A stretch of DNA of 64,000 nt from Methanobacteriaceae archaeon (GTDB lineage Archaea > Methanobacteriota > Methanobacteria > Methanobacteriales > Methanobacteriaceae). Location: the NCBI GenBank assembly GCA_029219465.1, contig JAQXTL010000006.1, positions 1 to 64,000 on the forward strand. Reading direction: 5' to 3'. Shown piece after piece: positions 28,090-33,899 of the stretch (its first letter is position 1; every line of letters starts with the position of its first letter). Position numbers and translations under genes: made by a program. The notes under the pieces are model-generated. The model made no database searches, was not told the DNA's origin, and was given only the letters and a program-made list of their open reading frames with translations.

Positions 28090-28114
28090 CACTTAAATAT
28101 TGGAGGAATTTAAT

Positions 28115-28741
28115 TTGCATATACCTGATGGATTTATACCAATCGCACAATGTTTAATATATTATGTAATTTTAATTGTTGCATTGTACTTCTCTGTAAA
28201 ATGGGCTAAATCAAACTTAGATGAAAAACGTATCCCACTTTTAGCAGTACTTGCAGCAGGTATCTTTGCAATCATGTCCATGAACATGCCAATTCCATTT
28301 GGTACCAGTGGTCACATGGTTGGAGGTGCACTCGTAGCTATTGTATTTTTAGCACCTGAAGCAGCTGTTTTAGTATTCACAGTTGTATTACTCATCCAAG
28401 CATTAATATTCGGAGACGGAGGACTTACTGCATTAGCAGCAAACGTAATTAATATGGGTATCGTTGGAGGAGCAGTAGGTTTATACACATTTAAAGCATT
28501 AAACACCAAAATCGGAAACTACCCTGCAGTAGGAATCGCAGCATGGTTAGCTACAGTACTTGCAGCATTAGCATGCGCTATTGAAATGAGCATTGCTGGA
28601 ACTTTCCCAATAAATATCGGTATCCCTTCCATGGTATTATACCACTTCTTTATTGGAATAATCGAAGCAGTATTAACTGTAGTTGTTGTTGCAGCATTAG
28701 ACAAATTTAGACCAGACTTACTTGCATGGAACAAAAATTAA
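28115..28741 (+). CDS. nikM: Nickel/cobalt ECF transporter substrate-binding protein
   Basis: A 208-residue CbiM/NikM membrane protein with about six to seven helices. The mature N-terminus MHIPDGFIP is the family's metal site: the amino group and His2 bind Ni or Co. This fixes the start at the TTG at 28115, with GGAGG 8 nt upstream; a TTG at 28100 is in frame but would bury the motif. The MHIPDG form leans toward nickel rather than cobalt. The operon continues with the N, Q and O components. Confidence 0.85.
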   Translation: MHIPDGFIPIAQCLIYYVILIVALYFSVKWAKSNLDEKRIPLLAVLAAGIFAIMSMNMPIPFGTSGHMVGGALVAIVFLAPEAAVLVFTVVLLIQALIFGDGGLTALAANVINMGIVGGAVGLYTFKALNTKIGNYPAVGIAAWLATVLAALACAIEMSIAGTFPINIGIPSMVLYHFFIGIIEAVLTVVVVAALDKFRPDLLAWNKN

Positions 28742-28754
28742 AGGAGAGATATAA

Positions 28755-29060
28755 ATGGATAAAAAAGATGTATCTTTAATTATTGTTGCAGTTGTTATTT
28801 GTGTCGTAATAAGTTGTCTTTCACCATATATTGCATCTGGTGATCCAGACGGTCTTGAAAAATCTGCAGAAGACGCAAATGTTCCTGAAGGATACCAAGT
28901 TGAACAAATTAACGGAATTCCTGAAGCAATCTTCCCAGATTACGCATTTTCAAATGCTCCAGATAACCAAGTATTACAAATTGTAGCACTGGTAATCGGT
29001 ACAATTTTAACTCTTGGAATTGGATATGGAGTTGCAACAATTTTAAAAAGTAGAAATTAA
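28755..29060 (+). CDS. nikN: PDGLE-domain component of nickel/cobalt transporter
   Basis: A 101-residue protein with helices at residues 6-26 and 76-95. The segment between them has SGDPDGLEKSAED near residue 30, the PDGLE motif, and FPDYAF near 58. PDGLE proteins are the N-type auxiliary component of Ni/Co ECF transporters. It follows nikM by 13 nt behind GGAGAG. Confidence 0.85.
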   Translation: MDKKDVSLIIVAVVICVVISCLSPYIASGDPDGLEKSAEDANVPEGYQVEQINGIPEAIFPDYAFSNAPDNQVLQIVALVIGTILTLGIGYGVATILKSRN

Positions 29061-29144
29061 ATTATATTAATTTCTTCTTTTTTTTACATAAAAAACAAAA
29101 TAATAATATATTACTATTTTTTAATATTATATTAGTGAATTAAT

Positions 29145-29975
29145 ATGGTAGATATAACACAAATAATGAGGTTTGATGAACTTGCATCCAAGCAAAGTCC
29201 AATTCATAATCTCGAAGGAAGAATTAAATTAATAACCTCAATTTTAATAATACTCATTTGTGTTACCTCAAAAGAACTTTTTATACCAATAATTTTAGAG
29301 ATAATGTTATTAATTATCTTAAAAATAGCTAATTTATCATATATTGATTCAGCAAAAAGATTATTAATGTTACTTCCATTTGGAGGAGCAATAATAATAT
29401 TCCAACCATTTATTCAACCGGGAAATATAATTTGGAGTTATTCCTGGTTACATATTACTGATTTTGGACTTAACTGGGCAATTTTATTGTTTGTACGTAT
29501 GATTGTTTGTTTAACAACAATTATTATCTACTCATCAACAACACCGCTACAGGAAATGGCAAGTTCATTTAGAAAATTAAAAATGCCAAGAGATTTGGCA
29601 ATGATTTTATCAATTATGGTAAGATTCTTGTTCTTATTTATTGATGAGCTTACATCAATTAGAAAAAGTCAAAAATCAAGGAATTTTAACATTCATTCCA
29701 AAAATACCCCATATAAATGGAGAGTAAAACAAGTTGGATACACAATAGGAATGATGTTTTTAAAATCATATGAACAAGGAGAACGTGTTCACAGAAGTAT
29801 GGTTAGTCGTGGATTTTCTGATGCATCAGAAATGTTTGATGAAAAAAAATCTCCTGAAAAAAGCGATTATGCATTTATTATTTCAATTATACTTATCATA
29901 ATCATACTTGAAATTATTATATTCAAATACAGTGGTCAATTAGGTTATATTGGTCAAAACTTATCAATTAATTAG
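29145..29975 (+). CDS. nikQ: ECF transporter transmembrane protein (NikQ/CbiQ)
   Basis: A 276-residue EcfT-type protein with about five to six helices. The coupling motifs on the cytoplasmic loops are visible near residue 176 (RKSQKSRNF, an Ala-Arg-Gly-like box) and near 216 ([10 protein letters not shown]), where the ATPases bind. An 84-nt gap with a T-rich stretch separates it from nikN, so partial termination or a second promoter is possible. Confidence 0.85.
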
Positions 29976-29983
29976 GTGACATA

Positions 29984-30823
29984 ATGCAACAAATTCATTT
30001 AGAGACAAAAAACTTATCTTTTACTTATCCTGATGGAACTGAAGCTTTAAAAAATGTAAATATTCAAATTAAAAAAGGAGAAAAGATTGCAATTATGGGA
30101 CCTAATGGTGCTGGAAAATCAACATTATTTTCCCATTTTAATGGTTTAAGCGAACCTACATCAGGACATGTTGAAATTGATGGTGAAAAGATAGTTTTTA
30201 CAAGAGAAGAGTTGCTTAAAGTAAGACAAAAAGTAGGAATTGTGTTCCAAGATCCAAATGACCAGTTATTTGCACCTACTGTTAAAGAAGATGTTGCATT
30301 TGGACCAATGAATTTAGGTCTTGACTATGATGAAGTAAACGCAAGAATCAAAGAAGCATTGGAAATGGTGGGTATGAGTGGTTTTGAAGATAAAACTCCT
30401 CATCATTTAAGTGGAGGTCAGCAAAAAAGAGTAGCTATTGCAGGAATTATTGCAATGAGACCAGAAATAATGATTCTTGATGAGCCAACTGCAGGTCTTG
30501 ACCCAGAAGGTGTTGATAAAGTATTAAACATTTTAAACAAGCTTAACGAAGAAGGAATGAGCATTATTATCTCATCACACGATATTGAAATGGTTAATCA
30601 CTTTGCAGATAAAATATTTGTTTTATATGGTGGAGAAATAATAGCTAAAGGAGATAAACACCAAATATTCTCTGATAAGGAATTATTAAAAAAAGCTCAC
30701 CTAAAAGCACCAATAACAACTGAAATTTTATACAAATTAAAAAAAAATGGACTTGATGTCGATACTCATAAAATAACAGTTGATGAACTGGTTAATGAAA
30801 TTCTTGACATCACAAAAAAATAA
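29984..30823 (+). CDS. nikO: ECF transporter ATPase (NikO/CbiO)
   Basis: A 279-residue ABC ATPase. Walker A is [13 protein letters not shown] near residue 38, the signature is [13 protein letters not shown] near 143 and Walker B is [13 protein letters not shown] near 162. It energises metal uptake through NikQ. The gene starts 8 nt after nikQ. It ends convergently with a small zinc ribbon gene. Confidence 0.9.
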
Positions 30824-30825
30824 GA

Positions 30826-31014
30826 TTATTTTCTTTTTTTAAATTTATTTTTAAGTTTTTTAATAAATTCAAATTCTTCATCAAGTTCCAGAGAATTCCC
30901 AAATCCGCAATTAGGACAGTGAACCTGATTACAGTTATGTTTTCCACAACTACTGCATCCACGGTTTTCTAACTTATTTTCATCAAATTCAAAACCGCAC
31001 ATTCTACATTTCAT
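30826..31014 (-). CDS. Small zinc-ribbon protein downstream of feoA
   Basis: A 62-residue protein with four CxxC-type pairs or singles: CRMCG (3-7), CSSCG (20-24), C28 and C33, and CPNCG (33-37). It ends in a basic Lys/Arg tail. It probably binds one or two zinc ions. It lies 49 nt downstream of feoA on the same strand and is likely co-transcribed, which suggests a role in the iron system; that is inference. Confidence 0.7.
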   Translation of the reverse strand: MKCRMCGFEFDENKLENRGCSSCGKHNCNQVHCPNCGFGNSLELDEEFEFIKKLKNKFKKRK

Positions 31015-31063: not shown

Positions 31064-31291
31064 CTATTCAACTTCAATATTTCCAGCTTCTTCTTTACGA
31101 AGACAAATATCATATCCTTTTATAGTCATTTCAATAGGATCTCCTAAAGTAGCAACTTTTTTAAGAGTAATTTTTGCTCCTTTAACAAAACCCATCCCTA
31201 ATAAATGCCTTTTTAAATCAACATCCCCAGTGTCATGATATTTAACTATTGTTACAGTCTCACCAGGTTTCGCATCTTTTAAGGTTTTCAT
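31064..31291 (-). CDS. feoA: Ferrous iron transport protein A
   Basis: A 75-residue FeoA of the SH3-like fold. The typical segments are GETVTIVKYHDTGD near residue 10, KRHLLGMGFVKGAKITLKKV near 28 and MTIKGYDICLRKEEAGNIEV at the end. FeoA binds the FeoB transporter and modulates it. GGTGAT precedes ATG. It has its own promoter (box at 31358-31366) and an operator near the start site. Confidence 0.92.
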   Translation of the reverse strand: MKTLKDAKPGETVTIVKYHDTGDVDLKRHLLGMGFVKGAKITLKKVATLGDPIEMTIKGYDICLRKEEAGNIEVE

Positions 31292-31385: not shown

Positions 31386-31436
31386 TTATTTTTTATTAGG
31401 AGTTTTGACTCCACTAATACCACTTCTACTACGCAT
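31386..31436 (-). CDS. Micro-ORF, 16 residues, second of a tandem pair
   Basis: The minus strand encodes MRSRSGISGVKTPNKK followed by TAA. GAGGTG lies 5 nt before the ATG. It is a near copy of the micro-ORF at 31468-31521: the first seven residues are identical, and residues 9-13 (GVKTP) are kept although the GTC/GTT and AAA/AAG codons differ silently. Kept frame, kept ribosome binding site and silent changes argue that it is translated. It lies between feoB and feoA on the same strand. I recognise no family; the peptide is basic and soluble. Confidence 0.6.
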   Translation of the reverse strand: MRSRSGISGVKTPNKK

Positions 31437-31467
31437 AATTACACCTCATAAAATTAAATTATAATAA

Positions 31468-31521
31468 TTATTCATCATCTTTAGGAGTCTTAACTCCTCT
31501 AATACCACTTCTACTACGCAT
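31468..31521 (-). CDS. Micro-ORF, 17 residues, first of a tandem pair
   Basis: The minus strand encodes MRSRSGIRGVKTPKDDE followed by TAA. GGAGGT lies 7 nt before the ATG, one of the best ribosome binding sites in the window. It is driven by its own promoter (box at 31588-31596) with an upstream TTTAGG-N4-CCTAAA operator, so expression is probably controlled by iron or a similar metal. The 31-nt gap to the second copy has no promoter. A 6-bp hairpin (AGGAGT/ACTCCT, 31483-31498) lies in the coding part. No known small protein matches in my memory. Confidence 0.65.
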   Translation of the reverse strand: MRSRSGIRGVKTPKDDE

Positions 31522-31541
31522 AATATAAACCTCCATTAAAA

Positions 31542-31557
31542 TTTAGTTATGACTAAA
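31542..31557. promoter_or_regulatory. Degenerate iron-box near micro-ORF transcription start
   Basis: TTTAGT-TATG-ACTAAA differs from the consensus in one base of each arm and keeps the symmetry. It lies just downstream of the start predicted near 31565, as the intact sites do in the feoA and tctA-side promoters. Confidence 0.45.
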
Positions 31558-31597: not shown

Positions 31598-31613
31598 TTT
31601 AGGTATGCCTAAA
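31598..31613. promoter_or_regulatory. Iron-box operator upstream of micro-ORF promoter
   Basis: TTTAGG-TATG-CCTAAA is a perfect 6-4-6 inverted repeat abutting the box A at 31588-31596, over the position of the TFB-recognition element. It is of the DtxR/IdeR type. Confidence 0.65.
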
Positions 31614-31628
31614 ACTTAAAAATTTAAA

Positions 31629-31656
31629 AAAAAATAATGGATAAATAAATTATCCA
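31629..31656 (-). terminator. Hairpin terminator after feoB
   Basis: TGGATAA (31638-31644) and TTATCCA (31650-31656) form a 7-bp stem with a 5-nt loop. On the minus strand it is followed by ATTA and nine T. The feoB stop codon lies in the stem. Confidence 0.7.
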
Positions 31657-33668
31657 AATCCTAACAATAAACCAATGTTATAGATTAAAAATGATACAAT
31701 GTATGCAGTTGTAACAGTAATAGCACACATGGTCAATGCCCATTTATATCCGTTTGTTTCACTTTTAATTGCACCAATAACTGCCACACACGGAGTGTAT
31801 AACAATGTAAATGCCATAAATGAAAATCCTGACAATGGAGTAAATGAAGTTTGAATCAAGTGAGTTATTCCAGTATGATCATCTGCACTCATTCCCGCAA
31901 GAGTACCAAATGTAGAAACTACAACTTCCTTAGCAGCCAATCCAGACAAGATTGCTACTGCTGCCTGCCAGGTTCCAAAACCTAATGGAGCAAATATCGG
32001 AGCAATAGCTGTACCAATCATTCCTAAAATACTCATTTGAGGATCAGTTCCTCCAAATGGATAAATGTTTTCTAAAAGCCATAGCAAGATTGCAAAGGTA
32101 AGAATAATTGTTCCTGCTTTTTTCAAGAATCCTTTGGTTTTATCCCAAGCATGCAATAATGTTCCTTTTACAGAAGGTACTTTATAGGTTGGAAGTTCCA
32201 TAACAAATGGAGTAGACAATCCTTTAAACATTGTTCTTTTAAGAATAGCTGCAACAACTAATGCTACAACAATACCTAACAAGTAAATTGAAAGTAATAC
32301 TAAACCACCATTTTCCGGGAAGAATGCTGCAACAAATATTGCATAAATCGGCAATCTAGCAGTACAGGACATGAACGGAACAAGCATCATTGCAAGCATA
32401 CGGTCCCCTTCATTTTCCATGGTTCTTGTTGCCATAATAGCCGGTACACCACAACCAAAACCTAAAATCATTGGAATAAATGCTTTTCCATGAAGACCAA
32501 CAATTTTGTGCATGAGTTTATCCAAAGTAAAAGCTGCTCTTGCAAGATATCCACAGTCTTCCAAGAAACTTAGGAATAAAAACATCAGGAAGATAATTGG
32601 AGTGAATGTTAAAACACCACCTACACCACCAATAATACCATCACAAATAATTGATGAAATTACCCCAGGACCTAACTGTGCGGCTAACCATGAGCTTAAT
32701 GCTGAAAATGCTTCTTCAATTACAGTTTGGAAAGGAGCACCAACAACAAAGGTTACCTGGAACATTATAAACATGACAAGAACGAATATGAAAGGTGCTA
32801 AAATTCTGTTAGTAACTACCTTATCAATTCTATCAGAAAGGGTTTCTATTTCCACTTCAGGTTTTGCTACTACCTCAGCAACCAAACCATCGATAAATGC
32901 ATACCTTGCACTTGCAATAACTTCTTCTGGACCATCATTATAAACATCATACAAATGTTTACTTACTTTATCGGCTTCAACCATGATTCTAGACCCATTA
33001 GGAGCATGTTGAACCTTATCTATAACAATGGTGTCTTTTTCTAATAATTTGATAGCAGTCCAGATAGAAGGAACATTTAATAACCCTTCATCTTGTTCAA
33101 TGAAATCCTGAATCTCAAACAAGTGACCTTTAATATCATTACTGTATGAGAGTTTTTCACTTGAATCTTTAGGATTTGCAGCTACTTTTTCAACAGTACA
33201 GAGCAATTCTTCAAAGCCCTCTTTTGTTTTTGCATTGATTTCAATTACTGGAAATCCTAAAAGCTCACTCATCAAATCCATATTGATAACATGACCTTTT
33301 TTTAATGCAAAATCATTCATATTTACTGCTAAAATTAGATTAGCTCCAAGTTCCATCATTTGAACTGTTAAATATAAATTACGCTCTAGATTAGCCGCGT
33401 CAACCACATTAATAATAACATCAGAATCATCATCTACAATGAAATCACGAGAAACAATTTCTTCCATTGTATGAGCACTTAAAGCATAATTACCTGGCAA
33501 ATCAACAAGATCATATTCATATTCACCATGAGTAAAGTGACCTTCAGCTTTTTCAACAGTTTTCCCAGGCCAATTACCTACATGTTGATGCATACCAGTT
33601 AATTGATTGAAAACAGATGTTTTACCTACATTAGGGTTTCCTGCTAATCCAACAATTAATTTCTTCAT
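31650..33668 (-). CDS. feoB: Ferrous iron transport protein B
   Basis: A 672-residue iron transporter. The N-terminal G domain has GNPNVGKTSVF (G1, near residue 10), DLPGNYAL (G3, near 56) and NMND (G4, near 114); a helical linker follows; the last ~400 residues have about eight to ten helices with the two Gate repeats (GCGVPAIMATRTME, SCTARLPIYAI). It takes up Fe(II) for the many Fe-S enzymes and the FeGP cofactor. The ATG at 33668 has GGTG 7 nt upstream; an in-frame TTG two codons earlier is less likely. Confidence 0.95.
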   Translation of the reverse strand: MKKLIVGLAGNPNVGKTSVFNQLTGMHQHVGNWPGKTVEKAEGHFTHGEYEYDLVDLPGNYALSAHTMEEIVSRDFIVDDDSDVIINVVDAANLERNLYLTVQMMELGANLILAVNMNDFALKKGHVINMDLMSELLGFPVIEINAKTKEGFEELLCTVEKVAANPKDSSEKLSYSNDIKGHLFEIQDFIEQDEGLLNVPSIWTAIKLLEKDTIVIDKVQHAPNGSRIMVEADKVSKHLYDVYNDGPEEVIASARYAFIDGLVAEVVAKPEVEIETLSDRIDKVVTNRILAPFIFVLVMFIMFQVTFVVGAPFQTVIEEAFSALSSWLAAQLGPGVISSIICDGIIGGVGGVLTFTPIIFLMFLFLSFLEDCGYLARAAFTLDKLMHKIVGLHGKAFIPMILGFGCGVPAIMATRTMENEGDRMLAMMLVPFMSCTARLPIYAIFVAAFFPENGGLVLLSIYLLGIVVALVVAAILKRTMFKGLSTPFVMELPTYKVPSVKGTLLHAWDKTKGFLKKAGTIILTFAILLWLLENIYPFGGTDPQMSILGMIGTAIAPIFAPLGFGTWQAAVAILSGLAAKEVVVSTFGTLAGMSADDHTGITHLIQTSFTPLSGFSFMAFTLLYTPCVAVIGAIKSETNGYKWALTMCAITVTTAYIVSFLIYNIGLLLGFG

Positions 33669-33698
33669 TAGCAAACACCATAATTAAATAAAATATTC

Positions 33699-33714
33699 TT
33701 TAGGTTATCCTAAA
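33699..33714. promoter_or_regulatory. Iron-box operator at feoB transcription start
   Basis: TTTAGG-TTAT-CCTAAA is a perfect 6-4-6 inverted repeat that overlaps the feoB start predicted near 33714-33716. It lies 31 nt before the ATG. Confidence 0.65.
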
Positions 33715-33813: not shown

Positions 33814-33829
33814 TTTAGGCTAACCTAAA
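33814..33829. promoter_or_regulatory. Iron-box operator upstream of rightward promoter
   Basis: TTTAGG-CTAA-CCTAAA is a perfect 6-4-6 inverted repeat 12 bp before the box A at 33842-33849. Confidence 0.6.
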
Positions 33830-33883: not shown

Positions 33884-33899
33884 TTTAGGAGTACCTAAA
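33884..33899. promoter_or_regulatory. Iron-box operator near start of rightward transcript
   Basis: TTTAGG-AGTA-CCTAAA is a perfect 6-4-6 inverted repeat about 10 bp downstream of the predicted start. An alternative is that it serves a second leftward feoB promoter with a box at about 33876-33883. Confidence 0.6.

Follow-up and report, generated by a model that had tools for sequence, protein, structure and literature searches.

Archaeal methanogens have a high iron requirement, and iron sensing and FeoB regulation in these organisms are poorly understood (PMC8351635). The roles of FeoA, FeoC and small FeoB-linked ORFs, and whether tiny ORFs make functional peptides, are also open questions (PMC8749426). 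The feo locus in a 64,000-nucleotide stretch of a Methanobacteriaceae archaeon (hereafter, the window) poses these questions in a concrete form: do two open frames of 16–17 codons lying between feoB and feoA encode a peptide and, if so, on what does the peptide act? A comparison across the order Methanobacteriales confirmed that the two ORFs are tandem copies of one micropeptide family encoded beside feoB. This family has not been annotated before, and human gut species are among its carriers. Its ORFs, at 10–33 codons, are below the usual annotation limits, and no paper on the peptide was found in the open-licence literature.

The feo locus and its two micro-ORFs

On the minus strand of the window, the genes are arranged in the order feoB, micro-ORF 1, micro-ORF 2, feoA and a Zn-ribbon gene. 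feoB (31650–33674) is a frame of 674 amino acids counted from a TTG codon, with a likely start at ATG 33668; the product contains the Pfam domains FeoB_N, Gate and FeoB_C and scored 646 bits against NCBIfam TIGR00437. feoA (31064–31291) encodes 75 amino acids (Pfam FeoA, 72.5 bits). The Zn-ribbon gene (30826–31014; 62 amino acids), for which no Pfam model scored above the cut-off, is the second conserved neighbour of the feo genes in Methanobacteriales. Zn-ribbon proteins of this type (62–76 amino acids; MKCRMCGFEFD.../MIQCMLCGCKFDE...) are encoded next to feo genes throughout the order, often 3' of the micropeptide (in the window, L250, L256, L064 and others). On the plus strand, ECF-type cobalt/nickel transporter-like genes (CbiM, CbiN, CbiQ and CbiO-like; 28100–30823) adjoin the feo locus.

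Micro-ORF 1 (31521–31468; MRSRSGIRGVKTPKDDE, 17 amino acids plus stop) and micro-ORF 2 (31436–31386; MRSRSGISGVKTPNKK, 16 amino acids plus stop) are present on the minus strand where an earlier interpretation of the DNA, made without database searches (the sequence-only reading), had located them. That reading credited both with strong, well-spaced ribosome binding sites, and these were found 7 nt (GGAGGT, 31529–31534) and 5 nt (GAGGTG, 31442–31447) before the respective ATG codons, the former being kept in relatives. As it also noted, the first 23 nt of the two ORFs are identical, and a Val and a Lys codon differ silently between them (GTT/GTC and AAG/AAA). Homologues beside feoB and purifying selection, both described below, identify micro-ORF 1 as a gene, with micro-ORF 2 as its tandem copy.

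The T-rich 3' end of feoB lies ahead of the micro-ORF operators. The perfect palindromic operator reported earlier after feoB was located at 31613–31598 (TTTAGGCATACCTAAA), just upstream of a TATA-like TTTATATAT, and marks the micro-ORF promoter. A second operator-like site, TTTAGTCATAACTAAA (31542–31557, minus strand), lies between the TATA-like element and the ribosome binding site, and most Methanobrevibacter loci have the same palindrome ahead of feoA. Upstream of feoB in the window, there are three perfect TTTAGG-N4-CCTAAA palindromes (33699–33714, 33814–33829 and 33884–33899). Sites of the form TTTAGK-N4-MCTAAA occur 15 times genome-wide; five of these are at the feo locus of the window, two of them ahead of the micro-ORFs and the other three ahead of feoB. 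Given that a control operator pattern had 11 matches in the same AT-rich genome, such sites are not rare by chance, and their weight therefore rests on their clustering at feo genes. The window's genome encodes one protein with a Fe_dep_repr_C domain, and the palindromes are probably the binding sites of a DtxR-type iron repressor.

A peptide family beside feoB in Methanobacteriales

The search pattern proposed in the sequence-only reading, MRSRSGI[SR]GVKTP, had no match in about 150 other Methanobacteriales genomes, even when one mismatch was allowed. The pattern was too strict to find anything outside the window, and relaxation to the true core uncovered the family. The relaxed pattern had 17 matches in 16 of 152 genomes of the phylum; 16 of the matches were located beside feoB, and a reversed control pattern had 0 matches in the same genomes. 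Inspection of the feoB–feoA intergenic DNA of relatives likewise revealed homologous ORFs directly 3' of feoB, e.g., MRSKSGIKGVKIPKNDED, MLSRSGIRGVKLPKDDD and MYSRSGIKGVKFPRKDSEDE.

Members were found in Methanobrevibacter, Methanosphaera, Methanothermobacter and four further genera (MTTKSGIIGIKNLNNVYMDKDDYPSENSELDDN, MKSRSYIKGIKLEENEEKDQDNQK, MRSKSGIKGIKISEIIEKRNLEDKKSSK and L288), the genus names of several relatives being putative assignments. A micro-ORF follows feoB in all eight Methanothermobacter genomes (MVSRGGIRGARKPVKPED, MVSRGGIRGGRKPKN), and one is present in 18 of the 19 Methanosphaera genomes with this feoB (MIIGVNTKKYPNKNKK, MIIGASPEVIKKIKKE, MIRGVNTKKYHKKDDE) and in about 20 of the 66 Methanobrevibacter-type genomes. 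The predicted family peptides of M. thermautotrophicus dH and M. smithii are MVSRGGIRGGRKPKN and RSKSGIRGIKIPKNKKVEGKSPSK, respectively; we take genomes G148, G046, G127 and G151 to be those of M. thermautotrophicus dH, M. smithii, M. stadtmanae and Methanothermus fervidus. The usual arrangement is a single copy with its own ribosome binding site directly after the feoB stop codon. Thus, the tandem pair and its own promoter, both described in the sequence-only reading, are real in the window but are local variants rather than family traits. An independent tandem pair, MIRGANTKKNNKD and MIRGANTKKSNKKE, each with its own ribosome binding site, was found in the Methanosphaera-type locus L274 (G123). 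The independent occurrence of pairs in the window and L274 suggests that the dosage of the micropeptide may matter.

The proposed link to the Feo system was supported across the order and could be narrowed to feoB, as the ORF lies 3' of feoB whether feoA is upstream or downstream. In all cases, the partner is the feoB of one subfamily, and genomes with only a remote FeoB have no ORF, with the exception of L288. In L288 (G139, minus strand, ~1498–1742), feoA and feoB have both been lost through an internal deletion that fused the first part of feoA with the last part of feoB; the micro-ORF and the neighbouring Zn-ribbon gene are intact despite this deletion, which may be recent.

Under a fixed scoring rule (ORF of 8–45 amino acids, core motif, ribosome binding site and at least two Lys/Arg residues), 49 of 168 feoB 3' flanks passed, or 48 after L147 was judged to be false. 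The corresponding numbers were 50 of 3360 for Markov-shuffled flanks and 2 of 168 for reverse strands (1.2%–1.5%). Copies that the rule missed or that are located elsewhere include L248, L239, L188 (shortened to MRSKSGIKG) and L173 (decayed). A ribosome binding site is present throughout the scored family members.

The silent differences within the window had been interpreted as a sign of selection on the peptide, with the silent/replacement ratio in related genomes suggested as a check. The order-wide comparison upheld this interpretation. Based on pairwise counts that ignore the tree and therefore carry approximate intervals, pN/pS was 0.26 in the true frame (bootstrap over codons, 0.13–0.44; 20 distinct Methanobrevibacter-type cores), whereas pN exceeded pS in both shifted frames of this set. 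The values for the other two groups were 0.21 (0.05–0.67) and 0.37 (0.17–0.57), and the frames contrasted less clearly in the Methanosphaera and Methanothermobacter sets, which are short. Synonymous codons vary freely while the amino acid core is kept. As judged from these comparisons, the micro-ORFs are almost certainly coding and selected at the peptide level. The earlier reading of them as translated ORFs is likewise supported by the ribosome binding sites and the frame-specific selection, and a selected peptide is, with high confidence, predicted to be translated from them.

It is very improbable that the conserved entity is an RNA or DNA element (a hairpin, terminator or operator) and not a peptide. 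In several Methanobrevibacter species (L025, L040, L049 and L013), the Asp-Asp-stop codons form the 5' arm of a 12–15 bp hairpin, which is probably the feoB terminator and persists in species that have lost the ORF, as an element of this kind might. However, the conserved core lies upstream of this hairpin and exhibits frame-specific synonymous change, and the Methanothermobacter and Methanosphaera versions have only the peptide core in common. An added RNA role had also been proposed for a GGAGT/ACTCC hairpin within each window ORF. Although this hairpin folds, each ORF folds no better than its shuffled versions (z −1.0 and 0.1), and the hairpin is absent from relatives; it arises incidentally from the codons GGA GTY AAR ACT CC, found only in the window, and an Rfam search had no match. 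The RNA role is thus unsupported.

Two residues, the initiator Met and a Gly, did not vary among 42 aligned peptides, and Ile occupied the position two places before this Gly in at least 90%. The peptides are basic and 10–33 residues in length; Cys is absent from 41 of the 42, the other having a single Cys, and no hydrophobic stretch or membrane segment could be recognised in their sequences. They are best explained as soluble, cytosolic peptides. Pfam and NCBIfam scans of three longer members yielded no match (most members have fewer than 20 residues), and a PDB search yielded no relative of the micropeptide.

Candidate role and evolutionary history

What such a peptide might do was considered in light of its gene neighbourhood. 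A regulatory leader peptide, whose translation would control the downstream gene in cis while the peptide itself has no function, is quite unlikely. In the window, as in many Methanobrevibacter genomes, the ORF does separate feoB from feoA, and a very short ORF with a strong ribosome binding site is typical of leaders. However, the next gene 3' of the micro-ORF varies (feoA in 16 cases, the Zn-ribbon gene in 20, and another gene or none in 12), and Methanothermobacter has no same-strand partner downstream, where the apparent frames resemble the shadow of a convergent gene. Moreover, the ORF is upstream of a feoB in L239 and between two feoB copies in L217/L230, and it contains no regulatory codon run, its amino acid core being kept while synonymous codons are free to change. 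Readthrough from or fusion to FeoB was also rejected, as the ORF is in frames 0, 1 and 2 relative to feoB 10, 20 and 18 times, respectively. The varied downstream genes, the use of all three frames and the restriction of the GGAGT/ACTCC hairpin to the window together make a leader, readthrough and an RNA element unlikely. No longer protein encoded at the fetched loci contained the motif; the sole two longer frames that turned up were upstream-open readings of the same micro-ORF.

A peptide acting in trans in the iron response could have another target, such as the DtxR-type repressor, FeoA alone or the Zn-ribbon protein. Iron-type operators flank the window micro-ORFs, the Zn-ribbon gene lies 3' of the ORF in Methanosphaera and other genera, and in L288 the ORF has outlived feoA and feoB along with the Zn-ribbon gene, all of which would fit such an effector. 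Nevertheless, feoB is the sole constant neighbour; feoA adjoins the ORF in Methanobrevibacter, and neither feoA nor the Zn-ribbon gene follows it in Methanothermobacter. A target other than FeoB is therefore doubtful.

Linkage to feoB, the FeoC and PF12669 neighbours of bacterial feo genes and the precedent of sP36 (see below) favour an accessory or regulatory peptide of FeoB. The sequence-only reading had named a FeoB regulator and an iron-responsive signal as candidate roles, and both are conjectural. We consider it reasonably likely that the micropeptide acts in the cytosol in this capacity, and its direct target would probably be FeoB or the FeoA–FeoB complex. The micropeptide would be made from the FeoB mRNA or, in the window, from a neighbouring promoter that carries the same operators. 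Its production may be under iron control. The I-x-G core and the basic residues might bind FeoB on its cytosolic face, perhaps together with FeoA, and binding could then adjust transport activity or assembly. Points against this view are the many Methanobrevibacter-type genomes that have FeoB but no ORF, the survival of the ORF in L288 and the outcome of a residue comparison. Among 511 FeoB alignment columns, no residue significantly tracked the loss of the peptide (best column, 6.7 vs. 1.3 of 15 independent pairs); thus, roles as an inhibitor, an activator or an assembly factor are not separable.

In a tree of 153 FeoB sequences, accounting for where the ORF is present takes 20 changes, of which 15 or more fall on well-supported branches. 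The ORF is widespread on the deep branches. Almost all members of the Methanothermobacter and Methanosphaera branches have it; in Methanobrevibacter, it occurs sporadically and decayed copies can be seen. Gain and loss are not separable by the tree alone; the decayed copies favour loss, and the simplest view is that of an ancient gene that has been lost many times. Genomes without the ORF at feoB had no copy elsewhere when the 152 genomes were searched with the relaxed pattern. Approximately 70% of Methanobrevibacter-type genomes have no ORF yet encode FeoB and FeoA, indicating that the micropeptide is not essential for transport.

The comparative support for the micropeptide is strong enough to plan experiments. 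Methanothermobacter is genetically tractable, with published deletion methods (PMC10370314, PMC12131731), and the family provides a precise target in this genus and in the human gut species M. smithii and M. stadtmanae.

Comparison with known accessory proteins and small peptides

In bacteria, a small ORF just after feoB, encoding a Cys-rich PF12669 protein, is regarded as a possible FeoB accessory, and the roles of this protein and of FeoC in bacterial feo operons are still debated (PMC8749426). The micropeptide is similarly encoded just downstream of feoB. In contrast to the PF12669 protein, which is longer and has a membrane segment, the micropeptides have 10–33 amino acids, are apparently soluble with no membrane span and lack the Cx3-5Cx2-3Cx6-8C motif. 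In L085, the slot after feoB is occupied by a protein that, judged by its sequence, is of the PF12669 type.

FeoC, at about 80 amino acids, has a winged-helix fold. It resembles the proposed micropeptide in being a small cytosolic accessory encoded with feoAB, but the micropeptide is too short for such a fold and has no sequence or size relation to FeoC. FeoC is found mostly in Gammaproteobacteria (PMC8749426). One tentative possibility is that the micropeptide is a dedicated FeoB subunit or allosteric regulator that functionally replaces FeoC in Methanobacteriales; it would then be among the shortest dedicated transporter partners known, with its dosage raised in the window by the tandem copies and the iron-controlled promoter.

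Attenuation leader peptides share with the micropeptide a very short ORF, a strong ribosome binding site and a location near regulated genes. They differ in that the micropeptide has no constant downstream gene and its peptide sequence is under selection. A parallel in function might be sP36 of Methanosarcina mazei, which binds and inhibits the transporter AmtB1 (PMC10714827). In keeping with a small-protein regulator of this class, the micro-ORF has the marks of a coding sequence whose peptide is under selection (pN/pS of 0.26, ribosome binding site and conservation), and the micropeptide would be a small soluble methanogen protein acting on a membrane transporter. By contrast, sP36 has 61 amino acids, is under nitrogen control and has no known sequence relation to the micropeptide; its function was established experimentally, whereas that of the micropeptide is suggested by genomic comparison.
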